DNA of 64,000 nucleotides, taken from positions 411,956 through 475,955 of the forward strand of contig WTXD01000021.1 of the NCBI GenBank assembly GCA_022496205.1, in the 5' to 3' direction. This document shows positions 34,487 through 64,000 of the stretch, piece by piece. The notes below the pieces were generated by a model. The model saw only the letters and a list, made by a program, of their open reading frames with translations. It searched no databases and was not told the origin of the DNA. How positions within the stretch are numbered: position 1 is the stretch's first letter; the number at the start of each line of letters is the position of its first letter. The translations under genes and the position numbers were made by a program. The stretch is from Gloeopeniophorella convolvens. Lineage: Eukaryota; Basidiomycota; Agaricomycetes; Russulales.

Positions 34487-34778
34487 TAATCTTAACTGAG
34501 CCCAAGCTCCCCACCGAGTAACGGTACCGTCTCCTTGAGTTTCCCTGAAAGCGACGGCACGGCTTCCAGCCACGCAACAGCTTTCTATTACAGACGATAA
34601 CTACCGAAAAGCCCGATACGCTGAAATTGTTTATTCTAGTATACAAATGACGCAACAAGTCCCGTATCCCATGGGGTGGGATCCTCAACCTTCAAAGTGC
34701 TGGATGATGGGGTATTGTGTTTGATCATCGGACAAGCGCATTCAAAGGTCTGAGGGTGACACATGTGAGTTTCGAGAC
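34487..34778. other. Intergenic region between convergent genes
   Basis: 3' flanks of the DUF4336 gene (+) and the phosphatase gene (-). Nothing else is supportable. Confidence 0.5.
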
Positions 34779-37669: not shown

Positions 37670-38195
37670 TGTTGAGACGGACAGGACTCAGGACAGGAAG
37701 GACGTCTCTGATTAGATTAGATAAGGGACTCGGTGATCTGTGAGCTATCTGATCTACAATGTATATGACATCATTATGTTCTAGCCCCTAAGGCTGTACC
37801 TACTTTTGTTCCTGTTCTAGATTCTTCCAGGCTCTTCCATGACCCACATGCAGTTCCGGGTTGACCCACCTGCAGTTCCGGTCGACCCACTTTAGTTCCG
37901 CTTTCACATGGGTCTCTGGTTATCACATGTTGCTGTTGTTTATCACATGCAAACCACACTCCTTTTGTGTATATAAAGGACACTGTTTTCGCCCTTGTAG
38001 CCTCAGTCTGTTGACTTCACTGACTGAGGCAAGTACTTTACTTTCGGAACTTCCAGACTTGCGCTTACCTAGTTACTTTAGCTTTGCTCTTGCTTGCCTA
38101 GGTATTGCGCCAATGATATTTAGTCTGTTGACTTCACTGACTGAGCTTTGCTCTTGCTTGCCTAGTTGGCACCCTGTTTCTGCTGCGCTTCAACA
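37670..38195 (+). repeat. 5' LTR of copia family A
   Basis: 526 bp, TG...CA ends. A TATA box (TGTATATAAAGG, about 37968-37979) is followed about 30 bp later by CCTCAGTC-loop-GACTGAGG, an inverted repeat that would fold near the transcript start. A second copy of the CAGTC-loop-GACTGAG unit and of GCTTTGCTCTTGCTTGCCTA lies further downstream in the LTR. Confidence 0.95.
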
Positions 38196-38207
38196 GGTTA
38201 TGGGCCC
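38196..38207 (+). other. Primer-binding site, initiator tRNA-Met half type
   Basis: GGTTATGGGCCC directly after the 5' LTR is complementary (one G-U pair) to the anticodon region of initiator tRNA-Met. This points to internal, half-tRNA priming as in Drosophila copia. The match is made against the general eukaryotic tRNA sequence, not one in this window. Confidence 0.6.
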
Positions 38208-38274
38208 TGGCCTTTAACTTTTTAGCAAGTCTTACTTCCGCACTCGCAACTCCCATTTGTAAATCATCACAACT

Positions 38275-40162: not shown

Positions 40163-41175
40163 GATAGCGCAAGCTATGAAGTCTGGCATCAGCGGATGGG
40201 TCACCTAGCCTATGGTACCCTGGAACGCTATGTAGAGCCTGCAGTTACTGGCTTTACTGTGGACAGTGCCTCGGAAGTCCCTGCAACTCCCTGCGTTGGC
40301 TGCCAACTCGGCAAGTCACACAGACAGGAGTTTCCCAGTTCTTACAAAAGGGCATGTTGAGACGGACAGTGTCCTGGCGGCTCTGATTAGATTAGATATG
40401 GACCTAATGATCAAGGACTATCTTATCTTGTGTACATAATGTTCTAGACTTAAGGCTGTGTTCAGCCCCACATTCATTTCCATGATTCTGGACTATTCTA
40501 GGGCATTCCATGACCCACCTTGTACTCCGGTACCCACTCTTACTCCGTTTCATGTGGGTCTCCTAGGCTTTCTAAGCAGTGTTTATCACATGCTATCTGT
40601 CGCTCCTTACTGTATATAAGGACCTCTTTCTTCGCCTTTGTAGCCTCAGTCTTTTGACCTTCTCTGACTGAGGCAAGTACACTACCGCTCTTTTCACTTC
40701 TACCTTATGCTTACCTTACCTTGTAGCGTCACTCTGTGTCCTTCAGGTATTGCACTAATGTATTAGTCTTTTGACCTTCTCTGACTGAGCGTCACTCTGT
40801 GTCCTTCAGTTGTCACTCCACCCTCTGCTGCGCTTCAACAGGGCAACTTGTCCCTTTGAGGTCGTTCATACAGACCTTGTAGGAAAAATGCAGACACAGT
40901 CTCTCCAACATCACTGGTACATCGCAATGTTCATAGATGACTACAGCAGTCACGCTGTAGTGTACTACCTTAAAACCAAGGACAGATTCAGTAAAGCCCT
41001 TACTGAGTACTTAGCGTGGGGGGAAACCCAAATGTCTAGTAAACTCAAGGTGCTACACTCCGACCGAGGTGGAGAATACATGAACGGTACCGTTGAGGAC
41101 TTGCTAAAGCAGAGGGGGATAGAGCACTATACCACGATGCCTCACTCATCGCAGCAAAATGGTAGAGCCGAGTGA
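40163..41175 (+). pseudogene. Copia pre-integrase and integrase core, interrupted
   Basis: Continues the Gag frame after the TAG: VWHQRMGHLAYGTLERYVEP, CVGCQLGKSHRQEFP (GAG-pre-integrase with the H-H-C-C zinc residues). It is split by solo LTR B2 and resumes at 40846 with CPFEVVHTDLVGKM, VLHSDRGGEYMNGT and SSQQNGRAE, giving the D, D and E of the integrase core. TGA at 41173-41175 replaces the Arg normally found in AERFNRT, so CGA to TGA is likely. Confidence 0.9.
40355..40840 (+). repeat. Solo LTR, copia family B (copy 2)
   Basis: 486 bp, nearly the same as copy 1, with target duplication GGGCA (40350-40354 and 40841-40845). Inserted in frame between the zinc-binding pre-integrase segment and the integrase core. 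Two independent family B insertions in one family A element. Confidence 0.95.
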
Positions 41176-41190
41176 TTCAATCGCACAATC

Positions 41191-43614: not shown

Positions 43615-43621
43615 TCTGGAT

Positions 43622-43631
43622 CACGGGGGGA
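43622..43631 (+). other. Polypurine tract
   Basis: CACGGGGGGA immediately before the 3' LTR: the plus-strand primer for reverse transcription. Purine run GGGGGGA. Confidence 0.7.
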
Positions 43632-44157
43632 TGTTGAGACGGACAGGACTCAGGACAGGAAGGACGTCTCTGATTAGATTAGATAAGGGACTCGGTGATC
43701 TGCGAGCTATCTGATCTACAATGTATATGACATCATTATGTTCTAGCCCCTAAGGCTGTACCTACTTTCGTTCCTGTTCTAGATTCTTCCGGGCTCTTCC
43801 ATGACCCACATGCAGTTCCGGGTTGACCCACCTGCAGTTCCGGTCGACCCACTTTAGTTCCGCTTTCACATGGGTCTCTGGTTATCACATGTTGCTGTTG
43901 TTTATCACATGCAAACCACACTCTTTTTGTGTATATAAAGGACGCTGTTTTCACCCTTGTAGCCTCAGTCTGTTGACTTCACTGACTGAGGCAAGTACTT
44001 TACTTCCGGAACTTCCAGACTTGCGCTTACCTAGTTACTTTAGCTTTGCTCTTGCTTGCCTAGGTATTGCGCCAATGATATTTAGTCTGTTGACTTCACT
44101 GACTGAGCTTTGCTCTTGCTTGCCTAGTTGGCACCCTGTTTCTGCTGCGCTTCAACA
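43632..44157 (+). repeat. 3' LTR of copia family A
   Basis: 526 bp, same ends as the 5' LTR. Seven base differences from it by eye (all transitions). Followed by the AAGGA target duplicate and the remainder of the mariner transposase. Confidence 0.95.
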
Positions 44158-44655
44158 AAGGAGCCACAAAGGCTCAATGGGATTGAGGTCAGGAGAGTTG
44201 GGAGGATGGGTAAGTGTTTGTATGTTTAGCTCCTTCCTTGCAAGAGTTGCAGTCTTGCTCCTGTGGGCAGGGGCACCATCCTCAACAACCAATATAGGGG
44301 TACTCCTCTCCTCCTGAAGGGTCCTACAGAAGTCAGAGAGAGGTCCGCGGAGCACCTGATCCACATATTTCTGTGCATTAAGCCCACCCCTTCCTTTGTG
44401 AGCTCCGGAGTGGCTGTCTTCATCACCCAACTGCAGCCTAACCAGGGGTCCCTTCCTGCCATGAGCAATGCAACCCCAAAGCATGATTGATCTTCTTCTG
44501 CTCGCAAATGTCGGAACAATATTCTCCTCTAGGTATTCTTCATCAGCTTGACGGGTAACTCGCTGATGCCCTGGCCGCTTTCCGGTCTCAATAGAAACCT
44601 CGTCAGTCCAGATCATGGAATTCCAGTTGCGCATCAGCAAAATGTACCCTAGTTT
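44158..44655 (-). pseudogene. Tc1/mariner (DD34E) transposase, central fragment
   Basis: Minus strand encodes WNSMIWTDEVSIETGKRPG, FASRRRSIMLWGCIAHGRK, AQKYVDQVLRGPLSDFCR, ILVVEDGAPAHRSKTATL and NSPDLNPIEPLW. The three acidic catalytic residues are visible; 34 residues separate the second D from the E, the Tc1 spacing. The coding sequence breaks at 44158 where the copia element inserted, and resumes at 37669. The N-terminal helix-turn-helix region is not found upstream, so the 5' part is truncated or decayed. Confidence 0.88.
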
Positions 44656-45154
44656 ATCTGTATATATAACCGATTATCAACACTATCTTCACTGTCATTG
44701 CTATCAACTCACGTCTAATTCCCCCGAGGTTTATCAATGCACGTCTTGGGGCCTATGAAACTCACCAATCCAGATGTGAGTTGATCAAACAGGGCTCAGT
44801 TGATCAACTTGCGCTCCCGTTGGTCAGCGTTGGTGACGTTGGCCAATGACCAACTCTGTTGATGTAGTTTATCAATAGCCCCGTACTAGATAAACTGTAG
44901 ACGTACCTATCTGAGCGTGATCACCCCATATAACACCAAGTCTTTGGGCCTATGGAACTCGCCAACCGTGACAGAGTTTATCAACGGCCATCTCAATTAT
45001 AATCCTTGATGTACCTTACCATGCGTTGTCTAGAGGTCACACCCTTGATCACTCCATGCCAGCACCCCGATGATTTGCCAGCAGTGACAACCGTTGATTC
45101 ACCATGATCTACGTACAACAAACCACTCGAAGACCAGCCTACCCCGCTCGCACC
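44656..45154. other. Non-coding stretch with a diverged direct repeat
   Basis: No gene supported. Two related segments, around 44742-44775 (GGGGCCTATGAAACTCACCA) and 44936-44968 (TGGGCCTATGGAACTCGCCA), each lie beside TTTATCAA; TGATCAA-type words recur between them. This could be the decayed flank of a transposon. Confidence 0.45.
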
Positions 45155-45731
45155 TCACCTGCGGCGCCTTGGGTGCTTTCGCGTTCCGGACTCCTCGAGA
45201 CCCTTGCGCGCGCCCACCTTCCGCTTCGGTGGCTTTGGCTGCGCCTCTTCCTCGCTCTCGGAGAGCTCGGAGAGCTCGGAGAGCTCACCCTGTATCACCG
45301 ACTCCTTGGCCTTCGCTTTCACCTCTTGCACGCGCATACCGCTGCCTTGGTTTGAAGGCACCTCTTTGTGGGTCAAGGACAGGCCTGGGGTGGGGGCGAG
45401 CTCCGATGGATCAGAGAGTCCTCCCTGCTCGCCGTCGTTGTCGTCCTCGTACAAGTCGTTATCGTAGGGGGCTTCATCCGCGAAAGTTGCGCACTCCTCG
45501 TCTTCCTGTTGGACATGCAGCGGAGACCCAGCTTCCTGCGCATCCTCCTCCGCTTGCCCACCTTTGACTGATCAGTATCTTTGTATGGGCTAAAGCCGTC
45601 TCCCACTTACGCTCGTCTTGGTTTGACGTCTTCCCTTCGAGTCGTCGCCTCCTCAGCAGCTCCACAGCAGGGTCAACAAAAGTCTCTGATGTTGAGCTCC
45701 CACGCCCACAACCCTCCTTATGACCGAACAC
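45155..45731 (-). CDS. Acidic, repeat-containing exons of uncertain gene
   Basis: Two segments splice in phase: one ending DPAVELLRRRRLEGKTSNQD, then (GTAAGT donor, acceptor ACTGATCAG) an acidic stretch with EDEECATFADEAPYDNDLYE, LSLTHKEVPSNQGSGMRVQE, a short tandem repeat GELSELSELSESEEEAQ and a basic end KHPRRRR. The tandem repeat is also seen as repeated GAGAGCTCG at DNA level. There is no ATG at the left part, so this is either the C-terminal portion of the neighbouring DUF6698-like gene through an intron I could not resolve, or a remnant. Low certainty. Confidence 0.35.
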
Positions 45732-45747
45732 AGCTCTGCTTTAGAGT

Positions 45748-47076
45748 TCAGTAGATTCCCTGCACCACTTTGTACACGCACTTGTTGAGATACCGGTTCA
45801 CCTCTTTTTTGAACTCCCCCGTCAATAACCCGATGACGAGGCCGTAGAGCGCTTCATAGTCAAAGCCGCCCACCCTTGGGGCCCAAGTTTTGTGGTTGTA
45901 CATCACAAAGTGCAGCTCAATGCATATATTAGTTCCGCGTGCCACCGTAGTCACAACTGCACGTACCTGCACCACAGCATACCCTACGAGCACACGCGTG
46001 ATCTTCCAGATCTGATGGATGGCCACATTACCTTGACGCTTGCCCTTGGTCGCAGTGCCGTCCGGCATGAGAGCTTGGCTGGGCCCGAGGAGGATATGCC
46101 GCAGACACTATCACGCATCAAGACCGCTCAAGCGAGATAGCGCGCGACTTACCCTCACGATCAGCTCACTCTGGAACAAACCCTCCTCTGGGTCGTCCGG
46201 GTTGTACTTGTACCCTTTGTAGAACATCATGAGCAGCATGGGGCCCGTGTAGGGGAGCTCCCCACTCTTGAGCCTCCCAATAGTCCTGAGCAAGACATCA
46301 GTAGATCACCGATCGCGAGATACGGCTCACTCACCCTGCCTGATCTTTTTCATACTGCGCAAGGTACGATACCGGAAGCAAAAGGTGCGCAAGAACCTTA
46401 TGATTGAATCCCCGGTCGCTCTTGCTGTCGCCGGGCTGCAATGGAGGGAGCAAGGGTTTGCTGGGGTCCAATGGGACAAGGTTGTGTATGGCCTTCTTCA
46501 GCCCGGCCACGTCGTCGCCCCGAGACTGGCATGCACCCTCCTTGATCTAAGAGCGTATGAGTAATACTACAGAGCCGCATATAGTTGACTCTGAGCCAAC
46601 TCACCGCGGCTATGATGCGAGTCATCTTTTCCCGGTTGTAGTCGTGCTCGAGCATCGACTCGAGCTCGGGCAGGTGAGTGAGGATAGCACAGAACACCTT
46701 TTTGATGCGAGCGATGGCCTGATCATCCCTGTGGGGCATGTCAGTATCAGTACACGTATAGTGGCCATCCTTACATCTCCAACTTCAGTGGTATGTTGTG
46801 CTCCGCACAGAGATACATATGCATGCCTAATCTCATTACCTCCCCAACGTTGTCGAAGAGCGCGATCCCACGAGGGATCCATCGTGCCTTGGTTACGTAG
46901 TCGGCTTCCTCGGGCCTGCCAAGCACACGTGAGTATATGCGCACTAACTGTCTCTCTACGCACCCGAAAGCAACTTCTTTGACTTTTCGCCCCTTTTTGG
47001 GGGCGTCATCTTCGCCATTTGCTGTGGAGGAGGAGTTAGGAGCGGACGGGGGTGTGCTATCGCGAGACGCGGGCAT
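45748..47076 (-). CDS. DUF6698-like protein (fungal, transposon-associated)
   Basis: Start at 47076 (MPASRDSTPPSAPNSSS). Exon 1 ends at 46775; exon 2 is 46728-46605; exon 3 starts at 46546. Product: KKGRKVKEVAFGCVERQLVR, DYVTKARWIPRGIALFDNVG, ELESMLEHDYNREKMTRIIA, then CQSRGDDVAGLKKAIHNLVP, SDRGFNHKVLAHLLLPVSYL, LMMFYKGYKYNPDDPEEGLF, GNVAIHQIWKITRVLVGYAV and FVMYNHKTWAPRVGGFDYEA, ending CVYKVVQGIY. The order (regular helices, Gly-phi-H region, W-P-hydrophobic-Y-DPE-P-GL segment, IH-hydrophobic-TP/TR region) fits the DUF6698 family as I recall it, which is abundant and repeated in Agaricomycetes. Function unknown. I saw no stop codon inside the exons checked. Confidence 0.6.
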
Positions 47077-47281
47077 GGTGGGCAGGTGAAAAGAGACGCC
47101 AAGGCTTGACCTACCGCTTTTGGAGTGCGCGTCCCAATGACGTGACTCCCAGTTCGCATCACATGCATCATGGCTTATCATTTGCAACTGAATGCACCCC
47201 CGACCTGCCGGCCTGGTTCTCTGACCGCCCTGTGTGCGACAATGCCAATATATTATACAGTACATTAATACAAGAACACAT

Positions 47282-50200
47282 TTAGCGGCGGCTCCTGTTG
47301 TACAGGCATCAGACAGTGGGGACAATACACTGAGCAAGTGACTTACCGCCGCGGTGGCCACGCGTCCAAGATCGGCACCAGCTTCTCTGCCTTGAAAGGC
47401 ACCTCCGAAGGTGCGCTTCCTCGGACCTGGGCGTGCAACTCCACGAACCCGAAGCCGTGCTCCATGCGGAGGAGTTTCCCCGTCTTCCCGATGAAAGTGT
47501 CGCTGACCACAAGGACGTCACTCTTGGGGGCCAGATCCCACGGTACAAGGTAGCGCGGGTTGATCGAGACCTCTTCAGTGCTCCTGTCGCGCGTGATACT
47601 CACCACAACCTCGTTGGCTGCAGGCTCCGTCTTGCGCTGCGAGGGTGGAACCATCCACGCACCATCCGACTCCTGCGCCTTGAGAGGGCTATTATGTGGC
47701 AGGCCTCGGAGATAGAAAGGGACCCTTTTGCTTTCAAGGACCGCTTGTACCTCCTCGGCGAAGAGCCAGTGTCTTGGCGCCCCTGAATTTGGTGTTAGCG
47801 GGATCACGGGGCGAGTGCGACTCTACGCACCTTCGAGCTCAGGTGTGATCGCCCTGGTGAGCGTAGATGGCCCCTCTTCAGGGGGCGGGGTCCGCGTCCG
47901 GGATGGCGATGTGTCGCCGCGACGCCGCTGAGCCCTGTTCCTTGGGTCAGGCAGAGCCATGCATACTATCGGGCACTTACATCGGCTTCCACTCATCTGA
48001 TCTTACCGTAACCCTTGAGTTTGTACCAACGTGGAACGTGTTGTGCGCGTCCAATTCGATGATGGCGCCGTCGGATGTGACCTCCTTGACAATCCCAAAA
48101 TACCCTTTCCACTGGCCCCGGGTCACCAAGGCTTCTTTCCCGACGTCTTGGGAACGGGGGTCTGCGGGCCTTTTGCGCGTGCCTTGGTGCTCCGAGACCG
48201 TGAGCACTCGCGGATCTAATTCCACCTGGGCGATAGTTCCGTTCAGTGCCTGCGTGACCCGAACATTCGAGACGTACCTCTGCCAGCTTCCTTATAAGGC
48301 GCCTCTGTCCAGGGGGCACGTCACTCTGGCCTGGCTCCTCTTGAATGTCCTGTGATGGTATTGGTTAACCCGCTGGTGTACAATGACAACTCAACTTACC
48401 TCGATCTCCTCCACCTCGTTGGCTACAACCACGAGGCCCGATGGTAACACACTCTGCACGCGCCCACGTGACTTGGGCAAGGCCGGATTGCGGGGATTGC
48501 CCCACTCGACCCAAAGCCCGGGAGTGGGCGTGAACATGTGCGTTGGGGGCGCATGCGCGCACACATAGTCTTGCAGGACCTCGACCTCAACTGGCATGAG
48601 ATGGGTCCGCTGTATGAGGGAAGCACTTACCGTTCGCGTGGAACCCTGCTCCACGTACACCAAGGTCCCATGGGCTTCATCAACGCTCGCGGCGGTGCCG
48701 TACGAATCACCCCATCGCTGCTTGACAATGTTCCCGGGTTCGTACCTGGGGTATACCTCTGCCAGTGGCACATTGACCTCTTGGCCACCCATCTCCAGGG
48801 GCCACTCCACTCGGACCGAGGCGATCCCGTCCTGAAGGCCGAGGAGGCGCCCTCGCGCGCTCTGAAATGAGCCAGCGACAATGCGCACTTTGTGATTGCA
48901 TTCGATGCCGTGCCGGACCCATTCCGCGAGCACGTTAGAGAACTCAGGATGAGTGCGCACGCGCTCAGCTTGTACGAAAGCCGCGATATCTTGAGGTGGG
49001 CGCGCTGCGACTTCCACCGAGGCGGCGGGGAGCCTCTTCATGACCAAGCCGTCTTCAAACTCTTGGCCGCGGAACCTGTACTTGCTACCTCCCGAGGCTG
49101 TGATGCTACTGGCGCCGTGGAGAGACGTGAGCTTGAGTTGGGAGCGTACCTTGGGGGGCGGCCATTGCTTGGGTGGGCCACGCGTTGAGGGCTCGCGTAT
49201 GCAGGGGACCAAGGCAACCAGAAAGTCCTTGACGGGGGTGTCATTGGCCCGTAGGACATAGCCAATGTCGTCATGGTAGATGCCCTGTCTCGCCCCTACC
49301 CACAGCCCTGCCTTCGGTTGTAATGTCCTGCTGATGGGTGGGGAGAGGAGGGGAGCCCGCTCTTGGGGAGGCACGAGGAAACCGTGGCAATCCAGCACCG
49401 GCACAAGGTGCTGGACGGCTTCCTGGGCGGAGGCACGAGGACCCTCGACGTAGATGTACTCCGGGATACCACCGCGTGTGAACGCGGCACTGTAGCCCGG
49501 GTCGAGATGACGTGCGAGGCGCTCTTCCACACGGGTCAGGAGCTGGTCCACGAGCTCCTCCTCGAAGCCGCGCTAGTAAAGTGTCAGCGGCGTTATTGCC
49601 TATGAGTCAACACTACATGCCTTCACGTGGAACGCGTGGATCTCGGGATCCCCTTCCACAGGCAGGAGCTGGTGCTGCAGCACCTCCACCCCGGGTCCGC
49701 TCATGCCGGCGTGGCGCCGGTAATGCGCCACGAGCTCATCAGCAACGGCGCTCAGAGCGCGAGCCTCGTGGGCAATGCTGTCCGGGTCGTGCGCAGGACT
49801 GCTGCCGCGCCCCACGGATTCCCCAGCCTCGTCGTCCAAGAAATCCTCTTGGGTCAAGTGAGTCGTGATCCAAGATAAGAGGGCCGACTCACCGAATTCA
49901 TCATACTCCTCCTCCTCCTCCTTGTTGAGACGGACAGGACTCAGGACAGGAAGGACGTCTCTGATTAGATTAGATAAGGGACTCGGTGATCTGCGAGCTA
50001 TCTGATCTACAATGTATATGACATCATTATGTTCTAGCCCCTAAGGCTGTACCTACTTTCGTTCCTGTTCTAGATTCTTCCGGGCTCTTCCATGACCCAC
50101 ATGCAGTTCCGGGTTGACCCACCTGCAGTTCCGGTCGACCCACTTTAGTTCCGCTTTCACATGGGTCTCTGGTTATCACATGTTGCTGTTGTTTATCATA

Positions 50201-50675
50201 TGCAAACCACACTCCTTTTGTGTATATAAAGGACACTGTTTTCGCCCTTGTAGCCTCAGTCTGTTGACTTCACTGACTGAGGCAAGTACTTTACTTCCGG
50301 AACTTCCGGACTTGCGCTTACCTAGTTACTTTAGCTTTGCTCTTGCTTGCCTAGGTATTGCGCCAATGACATTAAGTCTGTTGACTTCACTGACTGAGCT
50401 TTGCTCTTGCTTGCCTAGTTGGCACCCTGTTTCTGCTGCGCTTCAACACTCCTCCTCCTCGCCGTGGTCAACTTCGGCCTCAAGGTCCAAAAATTGGGTC
50501 ACCTGGATAAGGGTGGGAGGTCAGGTACCGCCGGTCAGGGATCTGTGACCACTCACGTCCGTAGGGGGGTGGGGCATAGTGTATGGGGTTTAATGGTATC
50601 TTTTCCTGGCGGAAAGGTCAGTTTAATATACCCTGGTGGCCACTCACCAATGCGCTCGCGGCGTGTTCGCAACGT
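47282..50675 (-). pseudogene. SPT5/KOW-domain-like protein gene broken by a solo LTR
   Basis: Minus-strand exons read like an extra copy of transcription elongation factor SPT5. An acidic N-terminus (FLDLEAEVDHGEEEE, YDEFG) is followed by an NGN-like part (EGDPEIHAFHVK, GIPEYIYVEGPRASAQEAVQ), KOW-type segments (GLWVGARQGIYHDDIGYVLR, HKVRIVAGSFQSARGRLLGL, EALVTRGQWKGYFGIVKEVT, PGLWVEWGNPRNPALPKSRG, DTFIGKTGKLLRMEHGFGFV) and a basic end PPRRSRR with stop at 47282. A 526-bp solo LTR (49923-50448) cuts the Glu-rich N-terminal exon. No ATG is found at the expected 5' end; ACG at 50675-50673 sits where a start might have been. This is not the housekeeping SPT5; such copies recur in mushroom genomes. 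Confidence 0.65.
49923..50448 (+). repeat. Solo LTR, copia family A (copy 3)
   Basis: 526 bp, same ends and sequence family as the LTRs at 37670 and 43632. Target duplication CTCCT (49918-49922 and 50449-50453) inside a CTC/GAG-rich coding tract. No internal domain. Confidence 0.95.
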
Positions 50676-54166: not shown

Positions 54167-57100
54167 ATGCCGCCCCGAGTTACCTCAAAGTCATGTCCCT
54201 GGTGTGGGAAAAGGTTCGACAGCGCGCACGGCTTGAAGACGCACCATGGACTGTGCAAGGCTTCACTGGCCGGACTCGACATCCCAGAGCTACACAAGAG
54301 GCCTCGAGAGGTGAAGAGTACGGCCACCGCGGGCGCTGGTCCTTCCAAAAGGCGCGCCCCTAAGGGGGGAGTCTTGGCGCGCCTACGCGGTACGACTCAT
54401 CGAGAGAGAGATTTGCAGCCTGCTCCAGTCCCAAAGGTGAGCAGATCATCCATTGCACAAACGCGCGCACTGACGGACTTAGCTCCCCCAGGACTTGGCT
54501 CCCGATCATCCACACGACGCAGAGGCGCCTACAGTCACCGCCGCCTCTCAGGTCTATCACCCAGATGTTCAAGAGTCTGACGTCCAAAGTCACGACGCAC
54601 TGGTGGAGCACCCTCCTTCACCACCCTCCCTCAATCTCCCAGAGGCCGAACCCGTGGTGCCGGAATATCCTGTGCACACCACACGCTCCGGCCGCACTCT
54701 GCGCGTCCCCAAGCGGTATCAAGACTTCATGCCTACCATGCCCCTTCCCTTGGCACACCTTCCCGCAGCTGTCAGCAGCCCAGCAGCGTCGCCCTCCCCT
54801 CCTCCGCCCACCGAGGTTGCCGAATCGTCGGATGGCAGCGCACCGCCGTCAACTACCTATACCACAGAACCCAACCAGTTCGGGTTGTTTTGCAAGTACC
54901 CCCGCGCCCCGTTCAACGACCCCGACCAACGCCTTGAGCTGGGGGATCTTTGCGACCCAGGTCCCCTTCGCGCGCAAGTCCCTGCGAAGAACAACCTTCC
55001 CCAGGCCAAGGACAAGCCGTACTATTACCCTTTCAGCAGTCCCACGGCCGCTGTACGAATGGTGTCGCACTACGACACGACTGTCCTCAAATCGGCTCGA
55101 GACTTGGTGGCAGACAGCCATGCCCTGGGTGCTCTAGGCAAGGAACTGAGCTATCAAGATCTACTTGACTTGAACGTCGAGCGAGAAAACGCGCTCCTGG
55201 ACAAGTACCTCAAGAGTGCCCCCGAAGCAGGCGAGTTCTGTTGAAGCGCAGCAGAAACAGGGTGCCAACTAGGCAAGCAAGAGCAAAGCTCAGTCAGTGA
55301 AGTCAACAGACTAAATATCATTGGCGCAATACCTAGGCAAGCAAGAGCAAAGCTAAAGTAACTAGGTAAGCGCAAGTCCGGAAGTTCCGGAAGTAAAGTA
55401 CTTGCCTCAGTCAGTGAAGTCAACAGACTGAGGCTACAAGGGCGAAAACAGCGTCCTTTATATACACAAAAAGAGTGTGGTTTGCATGTGATAAACAACA
55501 GCAACATGTGATAACCAGAGACCCATGTGAAAGCGGAACTAAAGTGGGTCGACCGGAACTGCAGGTGGGTCAACCTGGAACTGCATGTGGGTCATGGAAG
55601 AGCCCGGAAGAATCTAGAACAGGAACGAAAGTAGGTACAGCCTTAGGGGCTAGAACATAATGATGTCATATACATTGTAGATCAGATAGCTCACAGATCA
55701 CCGAGTCCCTTATCTAATCTAATCAGAGACGTCCTTCCTGTCCTGAGTCCTGTCCGTCTCAACAAGTTCCTGGCCAAGGATGGGTGGCGCGAGGCGTCAG
55801 TCTTCATCCCATTGCCTGCGGATGGAGTGAGACAAGGGGAGTCGGATGCACCCAAGTTCGAGGTCCCGGGTGTATGGGTGCGTGATATCGTCGATATCGT
55901 GAGCAACGTTTACCAAAGCGAGCGCGGCCGTACTCTCCACACGACGCCGTTCGAGGAGTACTGGGACCCAGGCGGCGGCGCCCCCATTGAGCGCGTCTAC
56001 AGTGAAGTCTACTCCTCGGCGTCCATGCTTGAGGCTCAGCGCGAAGTTGAGGCCCTCAACATCCCTGGCCCGAAGGGCGCGCTCCCTTGAGGAGTCATAC
56101 CCCTCATCCTCTACTCGGATGCCACTAACCTCACTAATTTTGAGTCCAAAGAGCTATGGCCCATGTATATGTTCTTGGGAAGCGAGTCAAAGTACACGCG
56201 TGCCATGCCATCAACGTTTAGCTGCCACCACGTTGCCTATATGCCCTCGATGCGCCTGCTCTTCTCTTGACAGCGATAACCGACTTACGATGATCTTCGC
56301 GTAGCTCTCTGACACCATTCAAGATGCTTACAGGGAGCAATTCGACAAGAACGCCACCGACGACACGCTCACGCACCTCAAGTGTGAGCTGATCCACCAA
56401 ATCCTGCACCTCATTCAAAACGGGAAGTTCGTCGACGTGTACAAGGAAGGGCTTGTCCTGGACTGCGGCGACGGCACGGAAATGCTTATGTTTCTGCGCC
56501 TCCTCATCTATGTGGCAGACTACCCGGAAAAGTAAGGCTCGCTACTAATACCTGGCTCATTGATGACCGCTACCGCATTGCACAGAGCGTTGCTGGCAAC
56601 AATCAAGCGAAATGGAATGTTCATGTGCCCACGGTGCCTCGTCCCCAAGTCGCGGGCGATTATGATGGGCACCAAGAAGGACCAGAGGGAGCGTCAGTGC
56701 CAGAAGTGCGTGGACGACACTACACGCCGAAGGCAAGTCAAGAAGGCGCGTAAGCTCGTATTCGATGGAGGGCGGCTCGTCAAGTCCAAGGCAGTGCAAA
56801 AGGAATTGCCAGGGTCTAAGGTCCCCACCCTAGTAAGCACCTGGGCTCGCTCATAAGATGTCAGAATGGGTGACGCAGGTGGCCACGCAGAATGCGTTCT
56901 CAGAGAAGCTGCAAGAGTTCGGCTTTGACTTTCACAAAGTCATATTGCCCGACTTCCTGCATGAGGTCGAGCTTGGCGTTGGGCCGTGCATCATAGAACA
57001 CCTCTTGCGCATCCTCGTTGCTGCGGGCGGCAACGGGGTGCAGGAGTTCAACGAACGGTTCCGCATGATTGGGACTTTTGGACGCGACACGATACGGCGC

Positions 57101-58914
57101 TTCACAGGGAATGTCTCGTCGTTGCGGAAGCTAGCGGCGCGAGACTATGAAGACATCATCCAGGTGAGACGTATACAAGCTTGAGTCTCCAGGGGAAGTT
57201 CTGAAACAGAGTCTTGACAGTGTGCCCCAATGGTTTTCGATGGCCTCCTAGGCGAGGACGTCGAAAACCAGAAGATCGTGGATGATCTTCTGTTTGATCT
57301 TGCCACCGTTCACTCGTATTCAAAGATGAGGATGCACACTGATACGACCTCCAAGAATCTCCGTGTTGCTCTCAAGGAATTCAGTCGCAACGTCCGAGTA
57401 TTCCAGGCAAAGACGTGTGCTAAATACATCACTAACGAGATGCCTCACGATCAAGTAGCACGTGGGCGCAAGAAGGCGGCGGTCAATGATCCATCCCGCG
57501 ACGCAACGGCCCCTGTAAAAGAGTTGAACCTGGCAACCTACAAGATGCATGCGCTAGGTGACTATGTAGAGACGATACAGTGGATAGGCGGGCTCGAGCA
57601 CTCGAGCACCCAAAACGTGAGTGTTGATTAGTCTCATAGGGCGGCGCGACGACCATGATCTCCAGGGAGAGCTTCAGCACCGCATCTCGAAGCGGCGCTT
57701 CCAGCGCACCAACAAAAACCAATTCGTCAAGCAGATTGCTCAGCACGAGGCGCGCGAGCGCGTCACTCGGCGCGTCGCGACACGTATCAAGAGTCACCTC
57801 CAAGAGAGGGATGGACTCCCGACAGAGCCGAGCGGGATCGCTGACGGGCTACCCTTCATGGACCCAGCAGCACACTATCACATGTCCAAATCGACGTGCA
57901 AGCACTTCCACCTGCCGACATGGCTTGGCAAGCATCAAGGTGACCCGGCTCTAGAGGTGAGTAATGTACCGTTTCGACGACTCGCGTTAACAACAGTCTA
58001 GGGATTCAATGGCCTCCTCAAGGACCACTTGCTGCAACGCCTCCTCGATGCAGATTTTGATGGCGACGAACATGAGCGCAGTGAAGAGGAGCGCGGCAAT
58101 ATCTTCATCGTGAACGACCGGATTTTCAAGCACAAAGTCCTCCGCATCAACTACACTTCGTACGACGTCCGACGGCAACAGGACTCTATCAACCCCCGCA
58201 CGCACGCCGACATCATGGTGCTCTCGCCTGAAGATATCACTAACCGGACAAACCCTAAACACCCGTACTGGTACGCACGAGTGTTGGGCATCTTTCATGC
58301 TGTAGTGCAGCACCGACAGGCAGACGGCACTGTATCGCCGCCGCGGGCGATCGATTTCCTATGGGTGCGCTGGTTCGGAATCAACAATGACTGTCCGGGG
58401 GGGTGGTCGCGAAAGCGACTTCACCGCCTCTCCTTCATCCCCGGGGACGAACCGGGAGCCTTCGGGTTCCTGGATCCTGAGCAAGTGATCCGTGCAGTTC
58501 ACCTTATCCCTGTGTTCGCACTGGGACGCACCTCGGAACGCCTAAGGGAGTTGCTTGTGCGCAGGCCGGAGGACAAGGGCGAGGACTGGGAATGCTACGG
58601 CCTAAACATGTATGTGCCATGCACTGAGACGTGAATTGGTATCTAATTACTATGTACAGGTTTGCCGATCGGGATGCGATGATGCGCCAGCACGGAGGTG
58701 GCGTTGGTCACCGATCTACGCGCTTCCTCAACCGGATCCTCCTTCGAGACCTGCATGTGCCGCGCCTGGGTGGACCAGCAGAGGTTCATGGAGATGCCAC
58801 CGACGATGAAGGCCCAGGGGACGATGAAGAGATCGCTGAGCACATATGGACCAAGACCTGCTATATCACTTGTGGAACGGCCCGACCGCAGAATCTCCAT
58901 ATGACTCATGGATA
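54167..58914 (+). pseudogene. Plavaka-type transposase, disrupted
   Basis: DNA transposase of the Plavaka group (CACTA-like, Agaricomycetes). Start MPPRVTSKS with an N-terminal zinc finger, CPWCGKRFDSAHGLKTHHGLC-like (spaced C2HC). Hallmarks in order: RGRTLHTTPFEEYWDPGGGA, RVYSEVYSSASMLEAQREVE, LILYSDATNLTNFESKELWP, YMFLGSESKYTRAMPSTFSC, FMCPRCLVPKSRAIMMGT, ILPDFLHEVELGVGPCIIEH, TYKMHALGDYVETIQWIGGL, EHSSTQN, HYHMSKSTCKHFHLPTWLGK, WVRWFGINNDCPGGWSRKRL, and the end FADRDAMMRQHGGGVGH. Lesions: solo LTR at 55239-55764; TGA at 56088-56090 between KGALP and GVIPL; and a lost splice donor near 56251, where CCCTCG is followed by AT instead of GT. Otherwise exons are well preserved. Confidence 0.85.
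55239..55764 (-). repeat. Solo LTR, copia family A (copy 4, inverted)
   Basis: 526 bp in reverse orientation, with target duplication AGTTC (55234-55238 and 55765-55769). It splits the Plavaka coding exon between SAPEAGEF and LAKDGWREA; removing it restores the frame, which shows the exon was intact at insertion. Confidence 0.95.
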
Positions 58915-60142
58915 GCCGACGTCGGCCGACCGGACCGTTTTCACCTATCGGTCATAGCGTCGGCCGACCGTATACCAAAACGGACCGTGCAAGCGTCGCT
59001 TTGAATGAAGGAATGATTGGAAAAACATAAAATGAAGTATCTAAGGAGTGTTTAGAGAATGTTTGAGTAGCATTCAAGTATTGTTTAAGTATTGATCAAT
59101 GATGAACACATGTGTAATTCAGTATAGTGAGTAGATACATCAGATGATTCCAAGGGCCCCCACTATACACATAACTCAGTTGGTGAGTGGTAAATCAAGA
59201 TGAATGAGTGTTACCATGTTACATTACATACTATGTAGTGTACTCTGAGTGCATACAAGGCAGAAACACGGACCATGCCACTGCTATAGAACGGACCGTG
59301 CAAAGGCCCTATAAACAAATCATATAAAATCTGTATATATAGTTCAGTTACACTACATGTGCACGGTCCGTGCATGAAACGGTCCGTGCATAGAACGGTC
59401 CGTGTTTACAATGATTAATGAACAGACTAGATCATGTTAGAGAATAGACTATGCACAGATCAGACTGTGCAGGCAGTATAGGTAATATCTAAGTGAACTA
59501 CTCGTCCATAACCTGTTGTGCTAGGTATACAGAGTAGACAGGACTGCATCAATCAAACTGTTGTAATGGCTATACTCAGATGGCTTTGATTATCCAGGTC
59601 TTAAGCATCATAAGACATATCTTTATCTACAGGTAAAATATGCACTCAAACTGAGAATACACTCTGCAAAGTCCTTCAATATAAGAAGGAGCCAGAGATA
59701 AAGCATGTCCATTGGGGAGTGCAATATACACTACAAGAATATTAGACTAGTTGTGAAGACCAATATACAATGGAGTATAGTAAGTGTATTAGATGCACAG
59801 GACTAAATATATCAAGTGACTGTAAGGTTGTCCATCACACACATCATGCAAACACTATAGAATAGATCATAAAAGGATAACAATCAGACCATGTAAAATC
59901 AGAACTGATTGGATTAGATTATGTGAGTTGAATGAATTAGATTGATCATATGACACGGACCATGTGAAACGGACCGTGTGAAACGGACCGTGCGACAGGG
60001 ACCTTGCAAACCGGACCATGTGAACAGCACATGACAAGTCTAGGCCTTCTCTTCAATTGTTGGGGCCAGAAAACATATTGGGGTATCAGAGCGCCCTATC
60101 ACTCTCTATCACTTCATCCACATCACTATCACGCATAACAAC
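58915..60142. repeat. AT-rich non-coding stretch carrying CGG-N-CCG motifs
   Basis: About 1.2 kb without reading frames of note. It contains eight exact CGG-N-CCG cores (58931, 58981, 59292, 59364, 59380, 59396, 59970, 59984) and variants ending CCATG, plus two copies of the perfect palindrome GTCGGCCGAC (58921, 58959). Composition changes sharply here from GC-rich to AT-rich. Near the right end, GGTATCAGAGC (60082-60092) matches the usual retrotransposon primer site for initiator tRNA-Met. Confidence 0.7.
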
Positions 60143-61169
60143 ATGCCAACCCTAGCTGAACTCTCCACATTCTCTGCTCTCCCTCAAGGACAGCAGACAA
60201 TCCTTAGAATTGCTGCCAGGATCAATGAGGTCCTCAGGAGATGTCATCAGCAAGGTATAGAGCCAAGCCCAGTGGTCTTGTGGCACATTGAGGATGCACT
60301 GGTAAGTTGTCATTTCCATACCTTGATCAATGATGTTCTTACTAGTGATTCATGATAGGATACTGCCCTAGAGCTGGGGATGGATAATCCCATCCTCTGG
60401 CCACACCCTGTCATCACTGAGGTGGCCACAGTGATCTATGGCAATAGTACACCAAGGCTAGGTGATGTGAACCTTCGAAGGATTGCTATAGACTGTGTGG
60501 CCAATGAGTGTAAGGGTGTGTCAGCCACCACTGAGCTCGAGAGATTTCTGGATGCTGGGAACACAAGGCCAGACAGTCCCAAGTGGTGGAGGCCTGACTT
60601 TGAGTCTGGTGACATTGAGCAAGATCAAGAGATGCAGAGGTGAGTTTATACCTTTACAACTGAGAGAGCATAATAGACTGAGTAGGTGTCATAGTCCAGA
60701 TATTTCAGTGTCTTCCATGGATTATATCCTAAATCAAACTGCTTCTGAGGATGGGGAGATTGAAGATGGGGAGATTGAGGAGATCCCCATGGAAGAATAT
60801 GACACAGTGAGTGATCTCTATGTGTTCTATTTACATATTGAACGGTCCATGTTGCAGAGAAGATGTGGGCAATGCAATCTTAATGATAGGCACTGTGAGA
60901 TTCAAGATCAAGTGCAATCAGATGGAGCCTATGAATGCACACACTGTGCAGAGCATGGGATCAGGTGCTGGCCACCTGCTGGGTGGGCCCTACCACTTCT
61001 GTATGCCATGAGAGATCGTCAAATGAGCTCCAGAGGTTGTGATATTGTCAGTGAGTGAATTGTACTATTTATTGTGGTTGAACAAGGCTAACAAAGCAAT
61101 ATAGCACGCAAGGACATAACAAAGCAGATTGAGGCAGTGATAAATCGTTTGGGGGGTGGCAGTAAGTGA
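60143..61169 (+). CDS. Zn2Cys6-like cluster protein X (tandem paralogue 1)
   Basis: Five exons, 60143-60301, 60359-60639, 60677-60806, 60858-61050 and 61105-61169, give 275 residues with all phases consistent. N-terminal half: LSTFSALPQGQQTILRIAAR, VVLWHIEDAL, HPVITEVATVIYGNSTPRLG, ECKGVSATTELERFLDAG, PKWW. An acidic repeat EDGEIEDGEIEEIPMEE follows. Then CGQCNLNDRHC and ECTHCAEHGIRC, which give C-x2-C-x6-C-x13-C-x2-C-x6-C, the spacing of Gal4-type Zn2Cys6 clusters except for a slightly long central loop. After it come WPPAGWALPLLYAMRDRQ and a tail ARKDITKQIEAVINRL that could form a short coiled coil, as in Gal4-type dimers. I do not recognise the family otherwise. Codon use and introns (37-56 bp) are like the neighbour gene Y. 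Confidence 0.72.
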
Positions 61170-61649
61170 AGGATTAGAGCTATTGGGTGTAGAAATGGGC
61201 TGTGTGAGCACGGGCCATGTATGCACACTTTTACTCTGCATTTCATGTATTATACTTCTGTAGAGTGTAAATATGGTTTAGTATGAAGTGTGGGAGACCC
61301 ATACAAGGGCCGTGTCAAGAATGGGCCATTCAAGCGCCCAGATTGCATCTACATCGAATCTTTAGATACACATTAACATGTGGGGCTGCCTAATCTGTGA
61401 AATCAATGGAGGATCTGATCTGATCTCGATCAAGTCAAATGTATTCCAAATTGAGTCGTTGACATCACTGAGTGCTAGATATGGATCGTCTGGCCGGACC
61501 GTTCTAGACATGGGCCGTTCCAGACACGGGCCGTGTGTGCACCCCGCACGGGCCGTGTTTGGGGCTCAATCAGCGTCACAAGTCATCCAAAGTGTCCCAA
61601 ATCCCCCTCACACTTTCCACACACTATATCAATCATCCCCATCGCTTCA
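61170..61649. other. Spacer between paralogues X and Y, with motif copies
   Basis: 480 bp without a gene. Holds three exact CGG-N-CCG cores (61495, 61527, 61549) just upstream of gene Y, plus GGGCCATG/GGGCCATT variants. These could be promoter sites of gene Y. Confidence 0.5.
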
Positions 61650-63011
61650 ATGTCTGACCTTCGTTTAGAGTACCTCAAATACACTGATGAGCAGCAGGAT
61701 ATGCTGCTGGTGCCTGTAGGATCATTGAGGCTGTTAGGGCAAGGGATCAGGGCAATGCAATCCCTGACAAGGACTTCAAAAAGCATCTGAAGCGAGAGGT
61801 GGTGAGTCTTTAGTATCATTATTTCATTCAAAGTCTCTAACAGTCAGAATCTGTAGGACACTGCCATCATGATACAGAAGAGATCTTTGGAGCACCTCTC
61901 TGTCCACCCAGCCATCAAGCTTGCTTCCAGCCTGTGGGAAGGCAAGACTGTGACCCCCCTGGATGAGCTCACCATGGAGAGCATCACTAAAGCCTGTCAG
62001 AAGTCCAAGAGGGAGGGTGTCTTGTCCAGCACTGACCTGGAGGAGGTGATGATTGAGGATGGGGAGTTGGATAGGTGGTGGTTGCCACCAGCAGCTGAGG
62101 AGATGGAGGTGGATGAACCAGGTACGCCTCAGTATCCCTATCTTGTTTGTACATCTCTGACACATTCTCTGGGCTTGTAGAACCCCCTGCAAAGCGCAGA
62201 CTGACCCGTGCGCTGCCAAAACGGGCCGTGCTGCAGGTCAACACTGAGGGAGCGACTCAGGGTGCTGCTGAGCAGGAGGAAGGGTGAGTACAGTTAAGGT
62301 CCACCTAGAAATGCATTGATTAACTTGTTATTCACCCACAGAAGCTCCCCAACGCCTCAGAACACCTACATCACAGAGGAGGGCACTGTGAACATGATCA
62401 AAAAGGACTACAAGAAGGTAAGTCAATTCTACTGCTCATATTTGATGATCTGATGCGATGTGCACGGTCCGTGCGATAGGATCGGTGCGGTCCGTGCAAC
62501 TATGCGAAGCTGGAGTGCACAATCCAGCCAGATGCCTTTGAGACCCGAAATTACGAGTGTATCAGGTGTGAGAGGCTGGGGATTCGCTGCTGGCCCCCTG
62601 CAAGATGGGCTCTGCCTCTGCTGTTCAGGCCAGAGACACATCTCAGGTCTAACAAGAGCACTACCAACTTTGTCAGTGAGTACAATCATTCTACACTCAT
62701 TGTGACAGTTCTAATGTATAATATATATAGCTGCACGCGATTTGCAGAAGCAGATCAAAAAGCTGACTGAAGTGCTCAAGGATGGCACTGCAGGCAGGCC
62801 AGATTGGCCCATTCCATCTCCCTCTGTTTCCCTTCATCCTATTCACTCTGCAGTCCCTCCCCCATCCTGTTCTCTGGCCACAACCTTGCAGAGGGTGTGG
62901 CTGGACCATCTCGTCTCCCAGCAGGCAGTAGCACGGTCCGTTCCACAGGCACCCCAGTCAAGCGTGTTTCCAGCACCAGTTGTGGCAGGAAGTGAGTGGG
63001 GCCATGTTTGA
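61650..63011 (+). pseudogene. Zn2Cys6-like cluster protein Y (tandem paralogue 2), frameshifted in exon 1
   Basis: Exons 61650-61801, 61857-62121, 62181-62283, 62342-62417, 62480-62675 and 62731-63011. Exon 1 begins MSDLRLEYLKYTDEQQDMLL, but the frame that continues the homology (CRIIEAVRARDQGNAIPDKD) is shifted by one base near 61704-61712; the exon is 152 bp where a multiple of 3 is needed. Later exons are in phase: HPAIKLASSLWEGKTVTPLD, KREGVLSSTDLEEVMIEDGE, then CGPCNYAKLEC with ECIRCERLGIRC, the same C-x2-C-x6-C-x13-C-x2-C-x6-C as gene X, then WPPARWALPLLFRPETH, ARDLQKQIKKLTEVLKDG and a Pro/Ser/Gln-rich end. Clear relation to X: DTA start of exon 2, HP-x-I, G-x-x-x-P-L, ST-x-LE, WW-P. 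Either a young pseudogene or a base error. Confidence 0.68.
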
Positions 63012-63345
63012 ATTTGTTGTACAATGTATCTTGCGTGCATGAATGGAATATCGATGTATTTCACTTGTTTGAATTGAATGTGTGATAAGAGTATGGATTT
63101 ATATGATTGAATGTGCACAAACACGGACTGTTCATTGAGAAGCACACAAGGCAAGGTGTATACATCAATACACACTTTATTATCTTCTTAAGCGTGTGGA
63201 TAAGCTTCGAATGAGTCATCGCACGGACCGTGTTACGGTCTGTGCAACATGGTCCGTGTTAAGGCGAAGTAGCTCATTGTGCTATTCACTATCCACAGAA
63301 AACAATAAACATGATATACTATAACTAAACACTTCTATGCTATGC
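63012..63345. other. Intergenic between gene Y and KDZ-like gene, with motif copies
   Basis: Convergent gap. It contains an exact CGG-N-CCG core at 63224 and near copies (ACGGTCTGTG, TGGTCCGTG) within 40 bp. No gene seen. Confidence 0.5.
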
Positions 63346-64000
63346 TCAAGGTACATAGATGGCTGGTACAGACATGTAAGTGAATGTAGACTTATCCACC
63401 AGCGGTTCAGACTCCCTAATAAACTTCAATGCCTCATCAGCACTCTGGGCAAGCTGAATCCACATGTGCCTCTGCTTTGCAGCATAGCATAGTGTCCTGG
63501 ACTGTCAATTGCACGGTCCGATCCATGCGCTCCATCCAGAAGTCTGCTCGATTTCTGAAGTAGGCTGGCACCCAATGAGCTTCATTCTTGATGGTGCACT
63601 CCTCCTCCATCCACCGCTCAAGCTGAGCCTTGGCTCTGAGCCAGTGAACCCGTTGTACTAAACATATACATACTATTAGTAGAGTCACAGAGGTAACAGA
63701 ATCAACAGAACCACTCACATTCAGCAAACCAATGAGGTCCATTATTCTCCTGGATCCCAAATGTCCAGATCCAGGGGAGTTGTTCATTCCGTTGTCCTCG
63801 TTCATTTGAGCCTAGAACAAGGGTTTGCACCTTCATATCTGCCTTGGTCAGCACTGGGAGTGATTCTTGACTTGGGAGTGCATCCTCAAGGACATCAAAC
63901 ATGTCCCTTGCCAGACTGTACACTCTGGCATGCTCTTGAACACCAGCATCAACACCATGCACACTGCTCCATGCACTCTTCTTGTCTTCTGGCTCTTGGC
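63346..64000 (-). pseudogene. KDZ-transposase-like C-terminal part (5' end outside window)
   Basis: Minus-strand reading enters from the right edge: HARVYSLARDMFDVLEDALP, LPWIWTFGIQENNGPHWF, then through an intron (GTGAGT donor at about 63719, acceptor TTTAG) LQRVHWLRAKAQLERWMEEE, NEAHWVPAYFRNRADFWMER. The pattern PWIW ... E-x-x-R-V-x-W-x-R-A-K-A ... R-W-x-E-E is that of the C-terminal region of fungal KDZ-related transposases. After about 63490 the homologous reading continues in another frame (YAAKQRHMWIQLAQSADEAL, ending SVPAIYVP at 63346), so a single-base frameshift is likely; in the first frame a stop follows at 63437. Truncated by the window. Confidence 0.55.

Follow-up and report, generated by a model that had tools for sequence, protein, structure and literature searches.

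Why two paralogous cysteine-rich genes of the basidiomycete Gloeopeniophorella convolvens lie within a dense array of short palindromes is the question raised by the 64,000-nucleotide stretch of DNA analyzed here (the window). A preliminary description counted 17 exact CGG-N-CCG cores in the 4.6 kb from 58931 to 63520. We reproduced this number exactly, and 2000 dinucleotide shuffles of the same stretch gave a mean of 0.096 and a maximum of 2. Many cores were described as extended to CACGG-N-CCGTG. This sequence occurs in 58841-64000 five times exactly, 13 times with one change, and seven times with two, and shuffles of 58931-63520 contain on average 0.0005 exact copies. Seven of the 13 one-change sites start with A, and four carry CG to CA/TG changes. 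The region had been called transposon-like, and it is indeed a transposon, whose paralogous Cys6 genes are surrounded by palindromes in a dense, non-random array. The earlier interpretation as a whole is partly supported.

The F1 transposon and its Cys6 genes

The 3' part of the window is the left third of a KDZ transposon of about 16 kb, here family F1, with its left boundary at window position 58841. The features in the window are as follows.

58841..60080, plus strand: F1 left end with terminus CACATATGG, terminal inverted repeat (TIR) of about 1 kb, 5' non-coding DNA and nine exact CGG-N-CCG
59954..60020, unstranded: cluster of four sites (at most two mismatches), 14 bp apart, 131-189 bp upstream of X
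60143..61170, plus strand: gene X (gene model), 272 aa, open reading, five GT-AG exons (60143-60301, 60359-60639, 60686-60806, 60858-61050, 61105-61170)
60841..60851, unstranded: degenerate site in intron 3 of X, an exact CGG-N-CCG in most copies
61209..61557, unstranded: sites in the X-Y intergenic DNA
61495-61557, unstranded: four-site cluster 101-155 bp upstream of Y
61650..63011, plus strand: gene Y, paralogue of X with a similar layout, Cys6 exon 62480-62675
62463..62473, unstranded: exact CACGGTCCGTG in a Y intron, directly 5' of the Cys6 exon; 7 of 8 aligned copies retain it
63122..63258, unstranded: intergenic cluster of sites, flanked by the converging 3' ends of Y and KDZ
63437..64000, minus strand: 3' end of the F1 KDZ transposase gene, an ORF cut at the end of the stretch (64000)

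Among the loci examined, CACATATGG opens 27 distinct left or right F1 ends, whose flanks differ except in one pair. The right end of copy C83 is an inverted copy of the left end that closes with CCATATGTG, and it is 84% identical to the left end in the window and 92% identical to that of copy C21. Mapping of flanks for the 7-bp target-site duplication of Kyakuja-type KDZ transposons (Kojima 2025) gave no matching pair, and no F1 copy examined had both ends. The minus-strand ORF at 63437-64000 is continuous with the KDZ gene of C21 and C83. The KDZ domain PF18758 matches the C83 copy with an E-value of 9.8e-29 (101 bits; cut-off 26.6), and further matches lie on the F1-bearing contigs C6, C89, C117, C164, C165, and C276. 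Five gene starts were found in F1, namely those of X, Y, KDZ, a third X/Y paralogue (Z), and a plus-strand gene of unassigned function whose start is inferred. Nine of the 27 ends sit inside other F1 copies. Insertion guided by the palindromes was rejected, as the nine junctions (one measured in two copies; 10 measurements) are no closer to sites than random positions.

A KDZ-type transposase gene had been placed next to the array. The KDZ transposon is the element itself, and the left-hand neighbor is a Plavaka gene of a separate element, which rules it out as part of the F1 unit. The best single exon of this neighbor matches PF18759 slightly below the cut-off (E 7.1e-06; 25.9 versus 26.3 bits), and its homology in other contigs ends at window position 58839 or earlier.

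The paralogy claimed for X and Y was confirmed. The product of X has a C-terminal Cys6 domain with a short segment, presumed to form a coiled coil, after it; compared with seven other aligned copies, the window copy of Y carries a frameshift in its first exon. Both genes encode C-x2-C-x6-C-x13-C-x2-C-x6-C, and all six cysteines are kept in 7 of 7 aligned Cys domains; in the Z copy P0010, one of these cysteines is missing. The Zn2Cys6 spacing is C-x2-C-x6-C-x(5-12)-C-x2-C-x(6-8)-C. The "exact binuclear-cluster spacing" of the preliminary description holds for the two halves; the linker has 13 residues in F1 and F2, one more than this range allows, and 11 in F3. At E<=1, Pfam had no match for full-length X or two pieces of Y, and the Z predictions P0010 and P0011 did not match Zn_clus. 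When the Cys domains were compared alone with Zn_clus (PF00172), six of seven matched below the curated cut-off (best E 0.19). The single alignment displayed sets the second half of the Cys domain against the first half of Zn_clus. By this cut-off, the Cys6 proteins are not formal members of the Zn2Cys6 family. A profile comparison with five yeast clusters gave a probability of 9%, and a PDB profile search gave a single match (E 7.2). The X homologues are annotated solely as hypothetical proteins, and 12 of the 13 proteins looked up in three sets (5, 4, and 4) are from G. convolvens.

Extent of the array and constraint on its sites

The array had been described for 4.6 kb, with a subterminal binding array as one possible meaning. 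The sites in fact continue through the whole element of about 16 kb, and confinement to subterminal DNA was rejected. They lie upstream of all five gene starts found, within two introns, and in each of the long TIRs (nine exact sites in the left TIR of the window, three in the right TIR of C83). In most copies, the cluster at 59954-60020 includes one additional exact core. Four sites each lie 90-240 bp upstream of X, Y, KDZ, and Z, and three upstream of the gene of unassigned function; this range was picked after inspecting the data, and 12% of random positions in the window and 7% in the C83 copy have at least three sites at such a distance. Genome-wide, exact CACGG-N-CCGTG occurs at 171 places, compared with 72 for a reversed-motif control. 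Among the 50 of these places that were listed, 43 are on contigs with F1 copies, and 41 are on five contigs totaling 0.18 Mb. The preliminary description would have been undermined by an equal motif density in AT-rich DNA lacking these genes. The outcome favored the description: the window has no CGG-N-CCG in 33582-48811, where GC falls to 0.47, and no comparable dispersed palindrome occurs in 27 control stretches taken from this genome, of which 22 are overlapping windows, with at most five repeats of any 4-bp half-site palindrome at spacers 0-13.

We compared the sites among 13 F1 copies (14 rows with the two C24 pieces separate), some of which cover the stretch partially; the counts take in matches of at least 88% identity and 200 bp and exclude right-end-type TIRs. 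Non-CpG positions of the sites vary in 0.4-0.9% of cells and neighboring positions in 1.7-9.5%. Positions -1, +2, +4, and +7 changed in 2/231, 1/232, 1/232, and 1/233 cells, and -1 and +7 were ignored in selecting sites. The ten outside neighbors changed in 4/232 (at -2) up to 22/232 cells, with 22/232, 17/231, and 17/228 at -5, -4, and +10. Non-coding G/C positions of the motif show two changes versus 19.2 expected from random non-coding G/C columns (P 0.0005), although context-matched CGG/CCG outside the sites do not vary clearly more (2/150 versus 2/464 inside). The majority sites are non-coding in 21 of 25 cases, with 46.5% of the stretch coding (binomial 0.0014). CpG decay is equally strong within sites (103/461) and elsewhere (142/564). 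Protection of site CpGs in old F1 copies is therefore ruled out, and there is no sign of methylation protection in those copies.

Related families with their own palindromes

Two further families, F2 and F3, were reached by protein similarity to X and not by the motif, the F3 matches being weak (E 0.003 and 0.02). Both carry X-gene paralogues and a dispersed palindrome of their own, ACCGG-N-CCGGT in F2 and TGCT-N-AGCA in F3. The palindromes of all three families have a 1-bp spacer, so that a spacer-1 array was present in 2 of 2 families examined beyond F1. The top 4-bp half-site palindromes over spacers 0-13 are ACGG-1 in F1 (13 times), CCGG-1 in F2 (10 times), and TGCT-1 in F3 (12 times), versus maxima of 5, 4, and 5 in 100 shuffles each. 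The F1, F2, and F3 11-mers with at most two mismatches occur 25, 3, and 2 times in F1 DNA, 4, 26, and 3 times in F2 DNA, and 1, 1, and 24 times in F3 DNA.

The zero-spacer palindrome GACC-GGTC is also frequent in F2 DNA (nine times in C372). We read it as part of the F2 spacer-1 site because it overlaps a CGG-N-CCG core in 17 of 19 places in C372 and C5, a reading that falls short of proof. Across the genome, the F2 11-mer shows no enrichment (79 versus 64 for the control), and no KDZ match adjoined an F2 copy among 60 candidates scored. The F3 sample comprises one 7-kb copy and 1.6 kb of a second, and the F3 Cys domain is interrupted by a stop in the C350 copy. The F3 11-mer occurs 55 times in the genome versus 16 for the control, mostly outside F3 copies.

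Possible function and comparison with known systems

Diverged sites with a common spacer in diverged families fit the self-regulation of the element that had been suggested. In our preferred explanation, which we hold with modest confidence as the probable one, the palindromes throughout the element are targets of the Cys6 proteins, which turn on or unsilence the family that encodes them, and protein and sites co-evolve. The transposon-encoded X, Y, and Z would probably bind as dimers to two inverted half-sites one base apart, upstream of the five gene starts and in scattered non-coding DNA. Such binding may mark the family's own copies, and its effect would be more transcription, removal of methylation or heterochromatin, or both. 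Each family would act on itself, with the joint evolution of protein and sites accounting for the differences in target among families. Binding by the Cys6 proteins, dimerization, and the activating or anti-silencing effect are what we infer from these arrangements. A broader proposal, possible rather than probable, is that KDZ transposons evolved anti-silencing self-recognition independently of plants, with ACGG-N-CCGT, CCGG-N-CCGG, and TGCT-N-AGCA co-diverging with the proteins. With fast-evolving zinc-cluster-like dimers, each KDZ family may then control its own copies independently of other families.

A rather unlikely alternative is that the palindromes are bound by the KDZ transposase, which would use them for sensing copy number, for bridging, or for recognizing ends, with the Cys6 proteins acting otherwise. 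The transposase diverges together with the element and its Cys6 genes and could thus be the binder; exact sites occur in both TIRs, and the KDZ proteins found here have a Cys-rich N-terminal segment of their own, where Pfam matches are weak. However, the sites are spread over introns and upstream regions and are not concentrated at ends, the nested junctions lie at random-like distances from them, and palindromic CGG triplets are a hallmark of fungal zinc clusters. It is also unlikely that the Cys6 proteins bind the arrays and repress the element, as self-limitation or as a repressor keeping copy number low. Sites 90-240 bp upstream of genes suit repression as well as activation, but repression is favored by no observation here, and dozens of sites in a self-repressing selfish element would require a special reason. 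Recognition by a host transcription or silencing factor, with the Cys6 genes as cargo, appears improbable. Zinc-cluster factors are common host regulators, and the F3 11-mer is dispersed in the genome too; however, a single host factor does not explain three different sites in three families whose Cys6 genes have diverged as well, and selection would purge host silencing sites rather than keep them. That the arrays lack function and arose through tandem duplication or mutational bias is very improbable, for although some sites lie in short tandem repeats (5 of 24 majority-site gaps are 14 or 16 bp), the remaining gaps are irregular (22-831 bp), logos are almost flat outside the palindrome, non-CpG positions are constrained, and three families share the spacer.

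The preferred self-activation reading can be compared with several known systems. The proteins resemble Gal4-type Zn2Cys6 factors in the two C-x2-C-x6-C halves, the presumed coil after the cluster, and the CGG half-sites of F1 and F2. They differ in domains below the PF00172 cut-off, a linker of 11-13, a C-terminal cluster, basic residues chiefly in the second half, and an F3 site that is not CGG. TnpA of maize En/Spm is an element-encoded DNA binder with a repeated short motif that regulates its own promoter and methylation. The predicted F1 binders are similar in this respect, but TnpA sites are subterminal and F1 sites element-wide, and we know of no relation between the proteins. Among titles, abstract openings, and, in part, top matches, none described KDZ elements in which a Zn2Cys6-like protein goes together with dispersed sites.

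KDZ elements of Agaricomycetes, including Kyakuja, have CA..TG ends and TET/JBP accessory genes with a proposed anti-methylation role, TET-bearing Kyakuja are known from Russulales, and no TIRs are reported for two TET-bearing Kyakuja of Laccaria (Kojima 2025, PMC12730594). That text makes no mention of zinc, cysteine, or Gloeopeniophorella, and its sole mention of a palindrome is unrelated. F1 likewise combines a KDZ transposase, 5'-CA..TG-3' termini (CACATATGG...CCATATGTG), and accessory genes. It departs from the Kyakuja type, defined as lacking terminal inverted repeats, by inverted repeats of about 1 kb. Our TET/JBP search gave no match, but its control likewise matched nowhere.

For the unsettled problem of how a transposon evades silencing while the rest stay silenced, VANC in Arabidopsis is to our knowledge the clearest sequence-specific answer so far. 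VANC is, as far as we know, unrelated to the Cys6 proteins and different in architecture. Anti-silencing has been demonstrated for VANC/VANDAL21 (Hosaka et al. 2017, PMC5735166; Sasaki et al. 2023, PMC10398659). Its motif YAGTATTAY is non-palindromic and lies in same-orientation tandem repeats, and related VANDAL families have different motifs, read as protein-target coevolution (Hosaka et al. 2017, PMC5735166). The likeness is a transposon-encoded protein family with element-wide short motifs, mainly in non-coding DNA including introns; F1, F2, and F3 each have an element-specific array with related proteins, the non-coding excess being established for F1. The systems differ in that VANDAL is a plant MuDR element, whereas here a fungal KDZ element combines palindromes of fixed 1-bp spacer with a zinc-cluster-like protein and a putative anti-silencing effect. 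If our explanation is true, fungi would provide a second case, unrelated to the first, and one genome would hold three natural protein/site pairs. Protein-target coevolution would be directly testable there, the palindromic target being readable from sequence, and the families would supply DNA-binding modules that have switched specificity from CGG to GCT half-sites.

Structure of the F1 element

The genome comprises 36.7 Mb in 404 contigs, and the window (C124:411956-475955) runs up to the end of its contig. The DNA at 58900-64000 is repetitive genome-wide (at least 67 matching pieces), and this repeat, a KDZ transposon family designated F1, has its left boundary at 58841. The terminus CACATATGG is common to 27 distinct left or right ends in the fetched loci, whose flanks differ except for one pair. 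The opposite end was found as inverted sequence in the copy on contig C83, where it ends CCATATGTG; the terminal inverted repeats of this copy are about 1 kb, with an internal segment duplicated in the right one. Each fetched copy is incomplete, and the F1 length of about 16.4 kb was obtained by combining the C21 copy with the C83 copy.

Genes of F1 from the left end, with the site cluster upstream of each (bp from the gene start) and the number of sites 90-240 bp upstream
X (60143-61170), plus strand: open five-exon gene; -189 to -131; 4
Y (61650-63011), plus strand: frameshifted in the window copy; -155 to -101; 4
KDZ transposase, minus strand: PF18758, E 9.8e-29; -93 to -204; 4
Z, minus strand: third paralogue, predictions P0010/P0011; -98 to -143; 4
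Plus-strand gene, followed by the right end: without significant Pfam family; -138 to -237 from a putative start codon; 3

The two paralogous genes of the preliminary description are X (272 aa) and Y. The adjoining transposase gene that it called KDZ-type is an unrelated Plavaka gene left of 58841, which we rejected as part of F1; the element carries a KDZ transposase of its own. The Plavaka gene (54483-58840) is broken by an LTR element, and the F1 insertion at 58841 meets its 3' end. The interrupting copy is one of a solo-LTR-like repeat of about 527 bp with TGTTGA...TCAACA ends (55239-55765, 49921-50448, 43632-44157, 37648-38196; 97-99% identical; at least 39 in the genome, with 40 of 350 candidates scored), a young LTR element.

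Nine of the 27 distinct F1 ends sit within other F1 copies (loci L041, L034, L039, L043, L028, L029, L012, L023; L039 is uncertain, its flank being a repeated segment), far above expectation if F1 makes up about 1% of the genome, a rough estimate. The nine junctions compared showed no proximity to the palindromes.

The site array and its constraint

We counted 17 exact CGG-N-CCG cores in 58931-63520, as previously described; 2000 dinucleotide-preserving shuffles averaged 0.096 and never exceeded 2. The longer CACGG-N-CCGTG occurred 5 times (0.0005 in such shuffles). The window holds 26 cores, 18 of these in 58878-63520, and the array extends over the remaining F1 (C21 copy, 32 cores in 10.3 kb; C83 copy, 25 in 11.4 kb). 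Three or four sites lie 90-240 bp upstream of the five gene starts found, a range picked after inspection of the data; at least three sites fall at that distance from random positions in 12% of draws in the window and 7% in C83. The introns of X and Y hold two further sites. Coding sequence occupies 46.5% of the stretch, yet 21 of the 25 sites of the majority sequence are non-coding (binomial 0.0014).

The palindrome footprint is visible across 13 F1 copies. Substitutions per cell were low at positions -1 (2/231), +2 (1/232), +4 (1/232) and +7 (1/233), of which -1 and +7 were not used in picking sites; neighbouring positions gave 4/232 (-2), 7/232 (+8), 17/231 (-4), 17/228 (+10) and 22/232 (-5), and the central base 7/230. 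CpG positions within sites changed by 11-13% per base, and CpG pairs decayed in sites (103/461) like elsewhere (142/564), as expected for methylated, dead copies. Non-CpG site changes numbered 2 against 19.2 expected from random non-coding G/C columns (P 0.0005), a comparison that is not decisive alone because context-matched CGG/CCG outside sites, few in number, also change little (2/150).

Genome-wide, CACGG-N-CCGTG occurs 171 times, compared with 72 for the reversed-pattern control. Among 50 distinct places listed of the 171, 43 are on F1-bearing contigs, and 41 of these share five contigs totalling 0.18 Mb.

Related families and their proteins

With X as protein query, the genome search reached two further families, F2 (31-45% identity; contigs C5, C372, C6, C240) and F3 (weak matches, E 0.003 and 0.02; 33-35% identity; C350 and C5 at 41 kb). 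F2 has the terminus CACATATGGATCA and the site ACCGG-N-CCGGT (logo ATGACCGG-N-CCGGTCAT). The F3 site is TGCT-N-AGCA; this family has a KDZ match near its copy on C5 (C5:38220-38594) and a related Cys-rich ORF in C350. Among the 60 KDZ candidates scored, none adjoined an F2 copy. An unbiased palindrome scan (all 4-bp half-sites, spacers 0-13, 100 shuffles per family) returned the family sites on top, each with a spacer of exactly one base (F1 13x, F2 10x, F3 12x; shuffle maxima 5, 4, 5), while the top palindrome reached at most 5x in 27 control stretches from this genome, including 22 overlapping windows. A second F2 palindrome, GACC-GGTC (9x), overlaps the CGG-N-CCG core at 17 of 19 places in two F2 loci.

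The 11-mers are largely private to their families: with up to two mismatches, F1/F2/F3 sites numbered 25/3/2 in F1 DNA, 4/26/3 in F2 and 1/1/24 in F3. Two F3 copies keep GCT-N-AGC at 7 of 8 sites (57% expected), and an F2 tandem duplicate (67% identity, coding included) keeps all 3 CGG-N-CCG of one arm in the other. Genome-wide, ACCGG-N-CCGGT is not enriched (79; control 64) and clusters within F2 copies on C5 and C6; TTGCT-N-AGCAA (55; control 16) is mostly outside F3. The F2-like protein P0007, on a 5471-bp contig, has a complete Cys6 domain but only 46% identity to the F2 query, and represents a further family. At C1:1387932-1390331 (listed place G000), 2.4 kb holds four ACCGG-N-CCGGT. The X search listed no paralogue for this contig, and the four sites possibly belong to another family or to a decayed one.

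X, Y, Z and the F2 paralogues have in common a helical-looking N-terminal part, a WW motif, an acidic or basic linker and a C-terminal Cys6 domain (C-x2-C-x6-C-x11/13-C-x2-C-x6-C); their short amphipathic C-terminal segment is a possible coil. In the F3 protein, the Cys domain alone is recognisably common with the other families. Decay is seen in the C350 copy of F3 (a stop codon inside the Cys domain) and in P0010 (one cysteine lost). A Pfam search with full-length X and two pieces of Y matched no family. For isolated Cys domains, Zn_clus was the commonest weak match, found for 6 of 7 with a best E of 0.19; the single displayed alignment pairs the second half of the domain with the DNA-contacting first half of Zn_clus. 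Profile comparison with five yeast clusters gave a probability of only 9%. The proteins are therefore best classed as Zn2Cys6-like, not Zn2Cys6. As to the earlier designation, the spacing within the two halves is exact, the linker has 13 residues in F1 and F2 and 11 in F3 (5-12 in Zn2Cys6), and the Cys domains stay below the Pfam cut-off for Zn_clus.

Candidate mechanism and known systems

With the element, genes, arrays, constraint and family specificity established, we lean slightly towards a reading in which Cys6 dimers target their own element and activate it or counter its silencing; the binder, the dimer and the sign of the effect are inferred. Element-encoded Cys6 proteins would bind the element-wide palindromes, probably as dimers, and the bound dimers may activate or unsilence copies of their own family. 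The strongest rival holds that the KDZ transposase binds the sites, which we consider unlikely.

As for self-targeting by Cys6 proteins, targeted unsilencing by a KDZ element seems plausible because mushroom KDZ elements are already tied to anti-methylation via TET/JBP genes (PMC12730594). Among titles and abstract openings of the top-ranked literature matches, we found no report combining Zn2Cys6-like proteins and dispersed sites in KDZ elements. TnpA/Spm offers a looser parallel to the F1-F3 pattern. VANC/VANDAL of Arabidopsis resembles F1-F3 in its element-encoded, rapidly diverging DNA-binding-like proteins, its element-wide, mainly non-coding sites near gene starts and its family-private targets (PMC5735166, PMC10398659).
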